Source: Blastocatellia bacterium
GTDB lineage: Bacteria > Acidobacteriota > Blastocatellia > Chloracidobacteriales > Chloracidobacteriaceae
Direction of reading: 5' to 3'
Length of the DNA: 64,000 nt
Assembly: GCA_019695185.1 (NCBI GenBank)
Contig: JAIBAN010000039.1
Coordinates: forward strand, 1 to 64,000
Shown here: positions 146-44,070 of the stretch, in pieces
How positions within the stretch are numbered: the stretch's first letter is position 1
Layout of the letters: the number at the start of each line of letters is the position of its first letter
The notes under the pieces: generated by a model
The model's input: the letters and a program-made list of their open reading frames with translations, nothing else
The model's database searches: none
What the model was told of the DNA's origin: nothing
Position numbers and translations under genes: made by a program

Positions 146-502
146 CTACTTCTTGAGTGTCCGGACATAGGGAACCAAGGCCGCGCATTTGTCCTTGCCG
201 AGCAAGGCTTCATAGGCCGGCATTTTGTTTTTCCCTTTGAGGATAATCTGCAACAGTTGGGCATCAGTCATTTTCTGGGCCTCGTCCCGCCGCAGGTCTT
301 TGGTGTTGAGTTTTTTGCCGTTGGTGGTGTTGCCGCTGCCGTCCATCCCATGACAGATGGCGCATTTGGCTTTGTAATCACCGGCGGCATCCACAGCCGT
401 GGCGGAAACCGAGAGCGGGGTTGTTATCCAGCCAAACCCTCCGAGCAGTAGCCCTGCACCGGTGAGAATGGCTATCTTCATGCGTTTGGTTCTGGCGTTC
501 AT
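146..502 (-). CDS. secreted mono-heme cytochrome c
   Basis: This 118-residue protein starts at the ATG preceded by GGGAGGAG, not at the longer upstream start that would overlap the barrel gene. Residues 8-36 form a signal peptide. One heme site, CAICH, lies at 47-51, and the KMPAY motif supplies a likely axial Met at 94, as in class I cytochromes c such as the cytochrome_CBB3 family. It should act as a periplasmic electron carrier. It begins only 19 nt after the stop of the outer-membrane barrel gene and is the third gene of a decaheme cytochrome-barrel operon, so it probably passes electrons to or from that conduit. The specific partner is inferred from position only. Confidence 0.88.
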   Translation of the reverse strand: MNARTKRMKIAILTGAGLLLGGFGWITTPLSVSATAVDAAGDYKAKCAICHGMDGSGNTTNGKKLNTKDLRRDEAQKMTDAQLLQIILKGKNKMPAYEALLGKDKCAALVPYVRTLKK

Positions 503-521
503 ACCAAGCTCCTCCCAGCGG

Positions 522-2627
522 TTAGAAAGTAAACCGCACGGTTGTGGCAATGATGTTGGCGCGATAGTCCTGAATCAGACGGTCGCGTTCGTTGTAGCTG
601 TAGTGGCGATACATAAAGTTCCCCGTGATATGGTCGGTGAACCGGTATGCCAAGCGGACTTCGGGGTTATGCCGGGTCAATGGCAAGGCGGTCACGAAAT
701 CGTTGGGACCCAACGATTTGGCATCCGGCGGAGCGCCCAGGTCTTTAGTGAACCGATAGGCCAACAGCAAATCTAGCCGCTTGGTCAGCCCCACCCGCGC
801 ATCAAAGAACATGAAATTCTGCCGCCAGAAGTACCGTGAACGGCCTGTCTGTCTTACGTTGTTGAGGAAGAAAATAATGGACGCATTGGAACTCAGGTAG
901 TTGAAATCATATCCACCCGAAAACCAGAAGCGTGAAGTTGGTTCCCAGAAAGCGGCAAACGACGCCACCCTCGCATTCGAGTCATTGCGCAGGAACCGGG
1001 TTGGATTGGTCCGGTCCGTCGTCGCCAATGACGCGTTGAAGGTCAGTTTATCGGTAAATTTGAGGTTGGTTCGCACCCGGAACCGCCGATATTCCTGCGG
1101 GTCAATGTTGACGAACGTGTTGTTGGCCCGTCCGTCTTCATAATCCACAAAGAAGCTCGCCTGTTTGACTGGGCGAATCCTGACACCCGCCAAAAAAGCC
1201 CAGGTGGTGTCCTGTTCTTTTTCCGCCGGGTTGGTGTTGTCACGCAGGGTCACATCCCGATATTGGGCCCGTGCCCCAACATTGAACGAGAATTTGGGGC
1301 TGGTTGAGTAATTCAACTGGATGGTGTCCCAAAACGTCGCCACCCCGATAAACTCGTTGACTCTGGTATTGGTCAAGGTATCCCGTGGGGAACCCGTGGG
1401 TGGTTGCAGGATGCTCCGGTTGGCGGTATTGAGGCCACCGGCGATCCGATAGTTAAAGAACCGGAACGAGTTGCTGACCGAAAAGCCCTTGCCAATGTCA
1501 AACGTCAGCACTCCGTCAAGGGTCGCGCTGGGACGATGGACATGAGCATTGTCAACCAATGTCCGGCTGACGATTTTATTTCCGGAAAAATCCACGCCTG
1601 ACGTTTGTTCAAATTCCGAGAGGTCCGAATTCTCATTTCCATAGAGACCGCGCAAGACCACATGGGCACGTTCCCCAATTGTTCCGCTGACACTCAATCG
1701 TGAAACGGATGCTCTGGAACGGGTCGGAAATTCCCGGATGAACGAGTTGAGCACCGACAGATTCGTGGTGCTGTTCCCTTTTTGAAGTGAAGTGATGTCC
1801 TCCATGCCGTCATCCCGATAGAGCCGGAACATCTGTTCAAAAAAGATGTCCCATTTCTTAATCGAGGTGTCGAACCCGAAGCGAAAATCATTGGCTTCCC
1901 AGCGGGACCTTCCATTGATGGGAAATTCGTCCCGTTCGTAATCATAGGTGGTGACATACGGTCCTTTGGCCATACTGCGGCCATAGTACAGGTTGACCCG
2001 GAATTTTCGTTGCGGGAACAGTTTCAGATTGAAATCCGAAACCTGTTGGCGGAGGTCAAAATTGTGTTGGTTGAGTGCATACGTCGGTTGTGACTTCCAA
2101 TAGTTAAACCGCCGCACATTCGCGTCAAATTTGTAAGCCCGTGTCTTGTCGGCCCGGAATGAAAAATACTGCCCTTGGTCCCCCCCGGCATTCTGCACAT
2201 CCATCCGCAGAAAATCGAAGAGGGCACCTTTGCCGTCAAGCGAACGCATGTCCATTGAATAATCAAAGACCCGGAACCCTTGCCGGACATTGACATCGGA
2301 AAGATAGGTGGGGAGGCTGCCATTTTGATCAACCCACCGGTACCCAACCTCCAGCGATGTCAGAATTGAGTAGTTTCCCACAATCCGGCCCACCCCCTCA
2401 CCTGACGGTTTGGGAGCACCGGCCTTTTTGGCCACTGCCTCGCGGGCTAGTTGCAGCTCGTCTTCCGAATGCTTGGCCTGCTGGCTGGTGATGGCCTTTT
2501 CCACACTTTGAGCGGCAACCAGACCGAACCATCCGGACACCAGGAGGATGGTGGCCAATCCAGCCAGTCGGGACGCCCAACGGCGCACGACAGGCACGTT
2601 TGCGACATTGTCACGTTTGCTGTTCAT
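522..2627 (-). CDS. MtrB/PioB-like outer-membrane beta-barrel protein
   Basis: The 701-residue protein has a signal peptide (about residues 14-40, ending near VAAQS). It then consists of alternating amphipathic strands rich in Tyr, Phe, Arg and Asn, and it ends in a terminal Phe (TTVRFTF), typical of outer-membrane barrels. Length and strand pattern match MtrB/PioB/DmsF porins, which wrap a decaheme cytochrome and let electrons cross the outer membrane. The gene directly upstream in the operon encodes such a decaheme cytochrome, 21 nt away, which strongly supports the assignment. I do not see the CxxC pair found near the N-terminus of Shewanella MtrB. Family membership is inferred from architecture and context rather than a diagnostic motif. 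Confidence 0.72.
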   Translation of the reverse strand: MNSKRDNVANVPVVRRWASRLAGLATILLVSGWFGLVAAQSVEKAITSQQAKHSEDELQLAREAVAKKAGAPKPSGEGVGRIVGNYSILTSLEVGYRWVDQNGSLPTYLSDVNVRQGFRVFDYSMDMRSLDGKGALFDFLRMDVQNAGGDQGQYFSFRADKTRAYKFDANVRRFNYWKSQPTYALNQHNFDLRQQVSDFNLKLFPQRKFRVNLYYGRSMAKGPYVTTYDYERDEFPINGRSRWEANDFRFGFDTSIKKWDIFFEQMFRLYRDDGMEDITSLQKGNSTTNLSVLNSFIREFPTRSRASVSRLSVSGTIGERAHVVLRGLYGNENSDLSEFEQTSGVDFSGNKIVSRTLVDNAHVHRPSATLDGVLTFDIGKGFSVSNSFRFFNYRIAGGLNTANRSILQPPTGSPRDTLTNTRVNEFIGVATFWDTIQLNYSTSPKFSFNVGARAQYRDVTLRDNTNPAEKEQDTTWAFLAGVRIRPVKQASFFVDYEDGRANNTFVNIDPQEYRRFRVRTNLKFTDKLTFNASLATTDRTNPTRFLRNDSNARVASFAAFWEPTSRFWFSGGYDFNYLSSNASIIFFLNNVRQTGRSRYFWRQNFMFFDARVGLTKRLDLLLAYRFTKDLGAPPDAKSLGPNDFVTALPLTRHNPEVRLAYRFTDHITGNFMYRHYSYNERDRLIQDYRANIIATTVRFTF

Positions 2628-2648
2628 GGCTGTACTCCTTCCTGTGAA

Positions 2649-3713
2649 TTAGCGGAAATAGGTCCGGTTGACGTTGGAACCGTGAATCATCCGGTGGCAG
2701 GTGGTGCAATTCTGGAACCTCGGCAACGCCAGATTATGGAACGACGGAGTGGGAACCCCACCCTGAGGCGGTTCACCTGGCGTGGTCGGAGTGTTGGAAT
2801 GGCATTCCAGACACAGGAAGCGGACTTCGTTGCGGTTGAGCAGGCGCGGATTGGTCGAACCGTGGGGCGTATGGCACGCCTGACAGCCTTCGATTTTCAC
2901 CGGAGCATGCTCATAGACAAAAGGTCCGGATTTATCAGCATGGCATTTGAGACAGGTCACGTCGTTTCCGACCCACGAACGCAGTTGCTTGGATTGGAAC
3001 CCGCCGTGCTGGTTATGACAATCAGAGCATTTCATGGTGCCTTCGGGAACCTTGTGATGGAAGGGCCGGTTGAAGGCCGCTTTCTGGTCCATATGGCATG
3101 AATAGCAAAGATTTGGTTGAGAATCGCGCAACAGGAATTCGGTCCGTTGCGGGGCATGGGAAGAGTGACAATCAAGACAGGAGACCCCGTGCCGACTGTG
3201 CTCGCTGCGGCGGAAGTTAAACCGTTCCTCGCTTCGTCCCTGATGATTTTCATGGCAAGAGAGGCACACAGCGCTGGCTTCCTCCGAAGTAAGCTTATTG
3301 AAATAGCGCAGTTTGGCGGCAGTCGCCTGGGCGGTATCGGCCATCATCGCTTCGGCCTCGGTTGCTTTCCCTTCTTCATAGAGTTTTTGAGTTGTTTTGT
3401 GAAACTCGACATGGAGCTTGGCACCGCCATGGCAGGCTTCACAACCACGTTGGTCAACCGGGAAACTTTCTGACAGGGTTTTCCGATGGGCGGTCACGGA
3501 AAAATGAGCCGATTCATTCGCGTGACATTCGGCACAGGACTCGTTGCCGACATATTTTGACGGATCAACTGGAGTGTTGATCTTGGTTTTTTTGGATTCC
3601 TTATTTGGTGCCGCGCCCTTGGAAGGAGTGGAGCCATAAGGAACGAAGAGGCTGAAGACCCCAACCAGGAAACCAACCATCAGCAGAATCTTAACGACTT
3701 TCGTGGTTCGCAT
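2649..3713 (-). CDS. MtrA/DmsE-type decaheme cytochrome c
   Basis: The 354-residue protein starts at the ATG with AAGGAG 7 nt upstream. A signal anchor or signal peptide spans about residues 7-26. Ten CxxCH motifs follow: the first is CAECH at 60-64, the second CEACH at 91-95, the last CTTCH at 336-340. The C-terminal CHRMIHGSN is characteristic of the DmsE/MtrA/PioA family. These periplasmic decaheme cytochromes form a wire that plugs into an MtrB-type barrel, and that barrel is encoded next. The likely role is moving electrons between the periplasm and an extracellular donor or acceptor. No extracellular MtrC/OmcA-like cytochrome is present in the window, as in the two-component PioAB arrangement. 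Confidence 0.93.
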
Positions 3714-41820: not shown

Positions 41821-44070
41821 ATGAAACGTCTGTGGTTAATCCTGCTTGCTATTTTTGTCTTTTCATTTGGGATTCTGGGCTGGGTCGGAACTGAAATCTT
41901 CCGCCAGGCCCCACCGATTCCCAAACAGGTGGTGACAACCGATGGAACCACGGTGATTGGGCCGGAAGAAATCCAAAACGGTCAAAATGTCTGGCAGGCC
42001 ATGGGTGGCATGCAGGTTGGTTCCATTTGGGGCCATGGCAGCTATGTGGCTCCGGACTGGTCAGCGGATTATCTGCACCGGGAAGCGCTCTTCCTCTTAA
42101 ATGCCTGGGGCAAAAGTGAATTCACCCAAACCTATGACCAGCTTCCGAGCGAACAACAGGCGGTTTTACGGCAGCGGTTGCAAAATACCGTGCGCACCAA
42201 CCGGTATGACCCGGCCACCGGAACCCTGGTGATTGAACCGCTCCGGCAGCAGGCTTTCGAGGCCAACCTGCACTACTATGCCGACATTTTTTCCAATGGG
42301 AACAAAAACTTTGCCATTGCCAAGGGGGCCCAAGCCGACCCGGTCAAATTGCGGCAGCTCAATTCGTTCTTTTTTTGGACAGCCTGGGCCTCAGCCGCCA
42401 ATCGTCCGGGTCACACCATTTCCTATACGAGCAATTTTCCCTCCGAACCACTGGTCGGCAACCATCCAACCAGCAATACGATTGTCTGGACCGGTGTCAG
42501 TGTGATTATGCTGCTCGCCGGAACCGGAGCCATGATTTGGTTTTATGCCAAACGCAAGCGGGAATCCGAGTTGGATGATGTCCCTGAACGTGACCCGTTC
42601 CTCAATCTGGTGCTGACCCCATCCCAGAAGGCCACAGTCAAATATTTCCTGATTGTTTCCCTCCTGTTTCTGCTGCAAATCGTGATGGGCATCATTACCG
42701 CCCATTACGGGGTGGAAGGCGGTGGCTTTTATGGGATTCCGCTGGCCGAGATTTTACCTTATGTGGTAACCCGGACCTGGCATACGCAACTCGGAATTTT
42801 CTGGATTGCCACCTCCTGGCTGGCAGCCGGCTTGTTCATTGGCCCCATGATTTGCGGATTTGAACCAAAGGGCCAGAAACTGGGTGTGGATGTGCTCTTT
42901 GGTGCCCTGCTGGTGGTGGTGCTGGGCTCCATGGCTGGCCAATGGATGTCGGTCATGCACAAGCTGCCGGGCACGCTGTGGTTTTGGGTGGGGCATCAGG
43001 GCTACGAATACGTTGACCTGGGGCGGTTGTGGCAGGTGGCCCTGTTGGTGGGCCTGCTGCTCTGGCTCTTTCTGGTCGCCCGGACCGCGTTGCCCGCGCT
43101 CAAAGTCAAAGATACACCCAAATCCCTGGTCACCTTGTATCTCTTTACCACCGCCGGCATTGCCCTGTTTTACAGCCCCGGACTGTTTTGGGGGATGCGG
43201 TCCCATATCACGGTCGTCGAATATTGGCGCTGGTGGGTGGTCCACCTGTGGGTGGAAGGGTTCTTTGAGGTTTTTGCCACAGTTGTGATTGCGTTTCTGT
43301 TTGCCAAGCTGCGCGTGATTCGGGCGGAAAGCGCCGCAGAGGCGTCCCTCATGTCGGGTGCCATCTACCTCAGCGGCGGCATCATCGGAACCTTGCACCA
43401 TTTGTATTTTGCCGGGACTCCCACGATTGCCCTCGCATTTGGTTCAGTGTTCAGCGCCCTGGAAATCGTCCCCTTGCTGCTGGTGGGCTATGAAGCCGTG
43501 GAAAACATCCGGCTTTCAAAAGTCCGCCCCTGGCTGGCGCAGTATAAGTGGGTCGTCATGTTTTTTGTGGCGGTGGCGTTCTGGAATCTGGTGGGAGCCG
43601 GTATCTTTGGCTTTATGATCAATCCGCCGATTGCGCTGTATTACATGCAGGGACTCAACACCACCGCCGTCCATGCCCACGGAGCCCTCTACGGAGTGTA
43701 TGGAACACTGGGTTTGGGGCTGATGCTTTTTTGCTTGCGGGCCATGAAGCCGGATTTGAAATGGAACGAACGGACCATTGCCCTGGCGTTCTGGACCCTC
43801 AATATCGGACTTTTCCTGGAACTCATTCTGAGCCTGTTGCCGATTGGATTGCTGCAAACCTATCAATCCGTCCAGACCGGCTATTGGTTTGCCCGCAGCC
43901 CTGAATTTATGCAAACCGACCTGATGCAGGCACTGCGGTGGCTGCGGGTGTTGGGCGATACGGTGTTCGCCGTGGGGGCCGTGATTTTGGTTTATTTCTC
44001 AATCAATCTGATGCGCCGGCAGCCCAAAACTGAACCCGAAACCGTCGCAGATCTGGCTGAAGTGCTTTGA
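41821..44070 (+). CDS. norB: quinol-dependent nitric oxide reductase (qNOR)
   Basis: At 749 residues it has the N-terminal quinol-type extension and about 14 TM helices, the form called NorZ/qNOR. VVHLWVEGFFEVFA (about 473-486) provides a His ligand of FeB with the nearby Glu, GTLHHLYFAG (about 523-532) gives two more, and VHAHGALYGVYG (about 617-628) carries the heme ligands. The N-terminal part has WQAMGGMQVGSIWGHGSYVAPDWS. It reduces two NO to N2O with electrons from quinol in the inner membrane. As no other denitrification gene is present in the window, it may serve NO detoxification. A perfect 26-bp hairpin follows. Confidence 0.95.
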   Translation: MKRLWLILLAIFVFSFGILGWVGTEIFRQAPPIPKQVVTTDGTTVIGPEEIQNGQNVWQAMGGMQVGSIWGHGSYVAPDWSADYLHREALFLLNAWGKSEFTQTYDQLPSEQQAVLRQRLQNTVRTNRYDPATGTLVIEPLRQQAFEANLHYYADIFSNGNKNFAIAKGAQADPVKLRQLNSFFFWTAWASAANRPGHTISYTSNFPSEPLVGNHPTSNTIVWTGVSVIMLLAGTGAMIWFYAKRKRESELDDVPERDPFLNLVLTPSQKATVKYFLIVSLLFLLQIVMGIITAHYGVEGGGFYGIPLAEILPYVVTRTWHTQLGIFWIATSWLAAGLFIGPMICGFEPKGQKLGVDVLFGALLVVVLGSMAGQWMSVMHKLPGTLWFWVGHQGYEYVDLGRLWQVALLVGLLLWLFLVARTALPALKVKDTPKSLVTLYLFTTAGIALFYSPGLFWGMRSHITVVEYWRWWVVHLWVEGFFEVFATVVIAFLFAKLRVIRAESAAEASLMSGAIYLSGGIIGTLHHLYFAGTPTIALAFGSVFSALEIVPLLLVGYEAVENIRLSKVRPWLAQYKWVVMFFVAVAFWNLVGAGIFGFMINPPIALYYMQGLNTTAVHAHGALYGVYGTLGLGLMLFCLRAMKPDLKWNERTIALAFWTLNIGLFLELILSLLPIGLLQTYQSVQTGYWFARSPEFMQTDLMQALRWLRVLGDTVFAVGAVILVYFSINLMRRQPKTEPETVADLAEVL

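Follow-up and report, generated by a model that had tools for sequence, protein, structure and literature searches.

The Mto system of Sideroxydans lithotrophicus ES-1 comprises MtoA, MtoB, MtoD and CymA/ImoA (PMC4412085, PMC13390432), with PmcA as a further cytochrome. MtoD is a bis-His cytochrome with a potential of +155 mV (PMC4412085). This high-potential protein shows no interaction with tetraheme ImoA, whereas the low-potential PmcA does interact (PMC13390432). The barrels of such systems, MtrB, PioB and MtoB, are reported to have 26 strands (PMC10654088). In Acidobacteriia, both MtrCAB (PMC8805035) and homologues of PioA/MtoA (PMC10654088) have been reported, and porin–cytochrome clusters have been described in Holophaga (PMC7399161). 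The direction of electron flow cannot be read from sequence, a point on which a survey of MtrCAB agrees (PMC8805035).

Here, we analyzed a window of 64,000 nucleotides from a Blastocatellia bacterium, corresponding to bases 1–64000 of contig C187 in a genome of 8.33 Mb (222 contigs, 99.7% complete). Three genes on the minus strand form a tight operon: a decaheme c-type cytochrome (2649–3713), an outer-membrane β-barrel of 701 aa (522–2627) and an exported mono-heme cytochrome c (146–502). The spacers are short, 21 bp (2628–2648) and 19 bp (503–521), and hold the ribosome-binding sites of the barrel and cytochrome c genes, respectively; a GGAG-type site lies at the start of each of the three genes. 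The three genes span the coordinates given in the first-pass annotation of this DNA. The operon very likely encodes an outer-membrane electron conduit, a distant cousin of the metal-breathing conduit of Shewanella. This reading builds on gene content and spacing, heme motifs, the fold predicted for the barrel and its kinship with MtrB, and the co-inheritance of decaheme and barrel.

In the proposed arrangement, the decaheme would thread the 26-strand barrel as a wire of hemes, and the mono-heme cytochrome would serve as a periplasmic electron shuttle. A tetraheme NapC/NrfH-type protein, encoded by the putative next gene on contig C6, would link the wire to the quinone pool. The search for a further cytochrome on the outer surface found none, so the decaheme would contact its partner directly at its outer end.

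Operon composition and its proposed continuation on a second contig

The decaheme protein (354 aa) has exactly ten CXXCH motifs and an IHGSN signature near the C-terminus. With the DmsE-family model TIGR03508 it reaches 247.6 bits, above the curated cut-off of 192.2, in keeping with its initial description as a decaheme MtrA/DmsE-type protein with a C-terminal IHGSN. Among PDB entries it best matches chain A of the Mtr complex (6r2q_A, E 1.9e-32), for which the depositors' molecule name is evidently wrong, and it is 28% identical to the MtrA of a Photobacterium MtrCAB-like cluster. Across 24 homologues the ten heme histidines are invariant or nearly so, each being present in at least 23. Nine of the ten candidate distal histidines are likewise kept in 23–24 of 24, and His326 is kept in 17. 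The structure model of the decaheme is poor (mean pLDDT 67.2). The nearest named loci belong to Blastocatellia or unclassified Acidobacteria MAGs.

The mono-heme protein (118 aa) is a class-I cytochrome c (PF13442, E 2.1e-11). Its Met94 is shared by 10 of 11 homologues, suggesting His/Met ligation. Of 43 distinct loci, we counted 11 in which a gene of this type comes immediately after the barrel gene.

The window begins at base 1 of its contig, and only 145 bp (1–145) remain beyond the cytochrome c stop codon. This edge carries a CAGTCCT heptamer array (∼71–137) whose position coincides with the end of the contig. The heptamer array is dispersed, with 94 matches across the genome, some nearby copies lying in the opposite orientation. 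In three relatives (L030, L034 and L070), the cytochrome c gene is followed by one for a 209-aa tetraheme NapC/NrfH-type protein and then by one for an apparent two-helix membrane protein of 65–70 aa. A search of the source genome with the relatives' tetraheme gave a single match, 60% identical, at bases 22–624 of contig C6, in a frame that is open from base 1. This gene (locus L105, 1–627) encodes three CXXCH motifs plus a CX4CH as the fourth, and its product scores 28.8 bits against Pfam NapC/NirT (PF03264; cut-off 24.1). A small membrane gene of 75 aa follows at about 624–850. Because the sole tetraheme orthologue sits at base 1 of C6 with the same small gene next to it as in relatives, we infer that C6 continues the operon; the join is made without sequence overlap, and other genes could sit in the gap.

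The operon is thus severed 145 bp past the cytochrome c gene, and neither a two-component composition nor the lack of an outer-surface cytochrome can be read from contig C187 alone. The first of these, proposed in the first-pass annotation, is most likely an artefact of assembly, with the tetraheme and small membrane genes lying at the edge of C6. The second, a claim that no outer-surface MtrC-like cytochrome is present, was beyond what the contig could show, yet the genome gives it some backing. A whole-genome search for the MtrC/OmcA family (TIGR03507) returned nothing over the cut-off and one weak match, whose surroundings hold NrfA- and NrfH-like genes of an NrfAH-type nitrite reductase. 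An outer-surface cytochrome of an unusual type could have escaped this family search. We conclude that the three-gene set is real and probably works as a conduit operon, one absent member of which appears to have been recovered from another contig. The case illustrates that an operon interrupted at a contig end may look less complex than it is.

By gene content, the operon with the tetraheme included is more akin to the Sideroxydans Mto set than to PioAB. As in Mto, a decaheme, a barrel, a mono-heme cytochrome c and a tetraheme NapC-type quinone protein would lie in one cluster, given the proposed join, and MtrC is missing (PMC4412085, PMC13390432, PMC8805035). The two differ in several respects beyond phylum. 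The acidobacterial barrel falls below recognition by the MtrB_PioB family model; Met94 of the cytochrome c is conserved, in contrast to the bis-His MtoD (PMC4412085); and the tetraheme has a CX4CH as its fourth motif and is followed by an extra small membrane gene. PioABC of Rhodopseudomonas also combines a decaheme and a barrel without MtrC, but a search for HiPIP/PioC (PF01355) found no match anywhere in the acidobacterial genome, and a tetraheme quinone protein is present instead. The original comparison with PioAB was therefore only loosely right. MtrCAB of Shewanella (6r2q) and the MtrCAB-like cluster of Photobacterium (L111) share with this locus an MtrA-like decaheme and the 26-strand MtrB fold. 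Unlike them, the acidobacterial operon lacks MtrC, no protein of the genome exceeding the threshold of that family, and its barrel contains no cysteine at all and hence no CXXC motif.

Fold and family of the barrel

The 701-aa barrel has no match among Pfam or NCBIfam models or PDB sequences. Pfam MtrB_PioB (PF11854) gave nothing over its gathering cut-off for this protein, for the whole genome or for 23 aligned members of the barrel family. Whether the 701-residue protein is a barrel was checked by structure prediction, which gave an MtrB-like barrel: in the AlphaFold2 model (mean pLDDT 75.8), we counted 26 main strands within residues 86–700 from the secondary-structure list. This lends support to the early proposal of a porin–cytochrome conduit outside the Proteobacteria. 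Foldseek ranked MtrB (6r2q_B) first, with TM scores of 0.61/0.65. VIA-align superposed the model on the same chain over 555 residues (Z 25.2, rmsd 3.8); the second-ranked chain reached Z 15.6. Identity to MtrB in the structure alignments is only 10–12%.

Profiles were also compared, one built from 18 barrel homologues and the other from 13 MtrB_PioB-type proteins. The hhalign match was nearly full length, with a probability of 99.6% and E 1.4e-24, versus a probability of 4–8% for a null in which the same profiles were reversed. The fold and profile matches, in the absence of any MtrB_PioB hit, indicate that the barrel, as modeled, is a remote relative of MtrB that lies outside the reach of the curated family.

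N-terminal to the first strand, a low-confidence part of the model (residues 39–60) carries an SVEK-x-TSQQ-like motif that is kept in close relatives. It is a possible periplasmic contact.

Pairing and distribution of decaheme and barrel

The decaheme gene lies directly before the barrel gene in all 20 relatives from the class. A second collection was scanned with a decaheme alignment, so its hits are biased towards close relatives; there, decaheme and barrel occur together in all Acidobacteriota loci with more than 1 kb of contig beyond the decaheme, though the barrel match is weak in one (L099). Recurrence in 20 of 20 class relatives and in the second collection shows that the pairing is not due to chance.

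In a decaheme tree of 73 rows, partners of the new barrel and partners of MtrB_PioB are split by a branch with 100/100 support, although selection by search favors a split of this kind. The sole mixed label reflects one protein entered twice (L033_8192 and L130_224). A split by barrel family is what a co-evolving matched complex would predict. One relative (G026) carries a classical MtrB_PioB pair and a new-type pair in tandem (L033, 5998–12885).

Among 396 sampled Acidobacteriota genomes, the barrel profile matches 88, representing 62 of 210 genera. MtrB_PioB is found in 90 of the 396, from 71 genera, and overlaps only partially with the new barrel. One protein, in genome G052 (C6, ∼13.4–13.9 kb), is matched by both the barrel profile and MtrB_PioB and is possibly an intermediate between the two families.

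We found no description of this barrel family in the literature searched, which was incomplete in coverage. It would probably go unnoticed in surveys that detect conduits with porin models of the MtrB/PioB or Geobacter type. Acidobacteriota are abundant in soils, and the capacity of the phylum for extracellular electron transfer may thus be undercounted.

Neighboring genes and direction of electron flow

Genes next to the same pair in relatives are of several kinds. Some loci (for example L028, L029 and L037) have a Rieske protein, a cytochrome b and a nine-heme protein; others (for example L043, L080 and L083) have b561-fused multiheme proteins together with NrfH-like ones. In the relatives examined, no oxidase genes were recognized next to the pair. 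The nine-heme partner was not found in the source genome, in a search run without a positive control.

These quinol-linked neighbors tilt our interpretation toward net outward flow, from quinol to an external acceptor. We regard this direction as somewhat more likely than inward flow and give it slightly better than even odds, the direction being read only from neighbors in relatives. A bolder extension is that Acidobacteriota harbor a conduit branch of their own. It would consist of a matched decaheme–barrel pair that evolves apart from MtrAB, placed on exchangeable quinol modules that include the Rieske/cytochrome b/nine-heme set, such that extracellular electron transfer could couple to bc-type proton translocation. 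We offer this tentatively, as a minority expectation.

The strongest competitor is an inward conduit, as proposed for Mto: an extracellular donor, for instance Fe(II), would feed electrons to the mono-heme cytochrome and on to an oxidase, and via the tetraheme to quinone. The gene content is like that of the Mto set (PMC4412085, PMC13390432), the conserved Met94 would suit a high-potential acceptor, and no MtrC/OmcA-family protein exceeds the cut-off. Yet the pair in relatives is flanked by quinol-linked modules rather than by recognizable oxidase genes, and MtoD, being bis-His (PMC4412085), is unlike the acidobacterial cytochrome c. Modules of the NapC and bc types, moreover, are able to serve both directions. 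On balance, inward flow seems rather unlikely, though it keeps a real share of the probability.

A conduit that feeds an extracellular terminal reductase, as DmsE/DmsF do in DMSO reduction, is improbable. The decaheme does score above the DmsE-family cut-off, a feature in common with Shewanella DmsEF, but neither the operon nor the DNA directly upstream shows a molybdopterin reductase gene, and no DmsAB-type reductase is seen beside it. The DmsE-family name, moreover, extends to MtrA-like proteins in general. Least probable, and already largely refuted, is that the barrel belongs to the outer-membrane proteins unrelated to MtrB, such as TonB-dependent receptors, and adjoins a periplasmic decaheme by chance: its lack of Pfam and NCBIfam matches and its low identity to MtrB would fit such a protein, but the 26 main strands, MtrB as the clear top fold match, the hhalign result against its reversed null and the constant pairing with the decaheme all argue against it. 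The conduit itself is our preferred reading; the confidence we place in it does not extend to its direction.

Multiheme proteins elsewhere in the genome were gathered by family searches; the CXXCH pattern matches at least 100 places. Judged by sequence, those seen resemble a subunit of alternative complex III, a bc-like complex, an octaheme protein and a fusion of FHA and multiheme parts. On contig C138 (L050, 5701–16203), genes for a Rieske protein, a cytochrome b and a seven-heme cytochrome lie beside genes for large iron–sulfur subunits resembling those of alternative complex III. On contig C221 (L052, 7993–11505), a protein of 1170 aa apparently combines an FHA-like start, eight CXXCH motifs, and ferredoxin-like and FAD oxidoreductase-like parts. 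Within the window itself, positions 41821–44070 encode a membrane protein of 749 aa, a putative nitric oxide reductase of the quinol-dependent kind.
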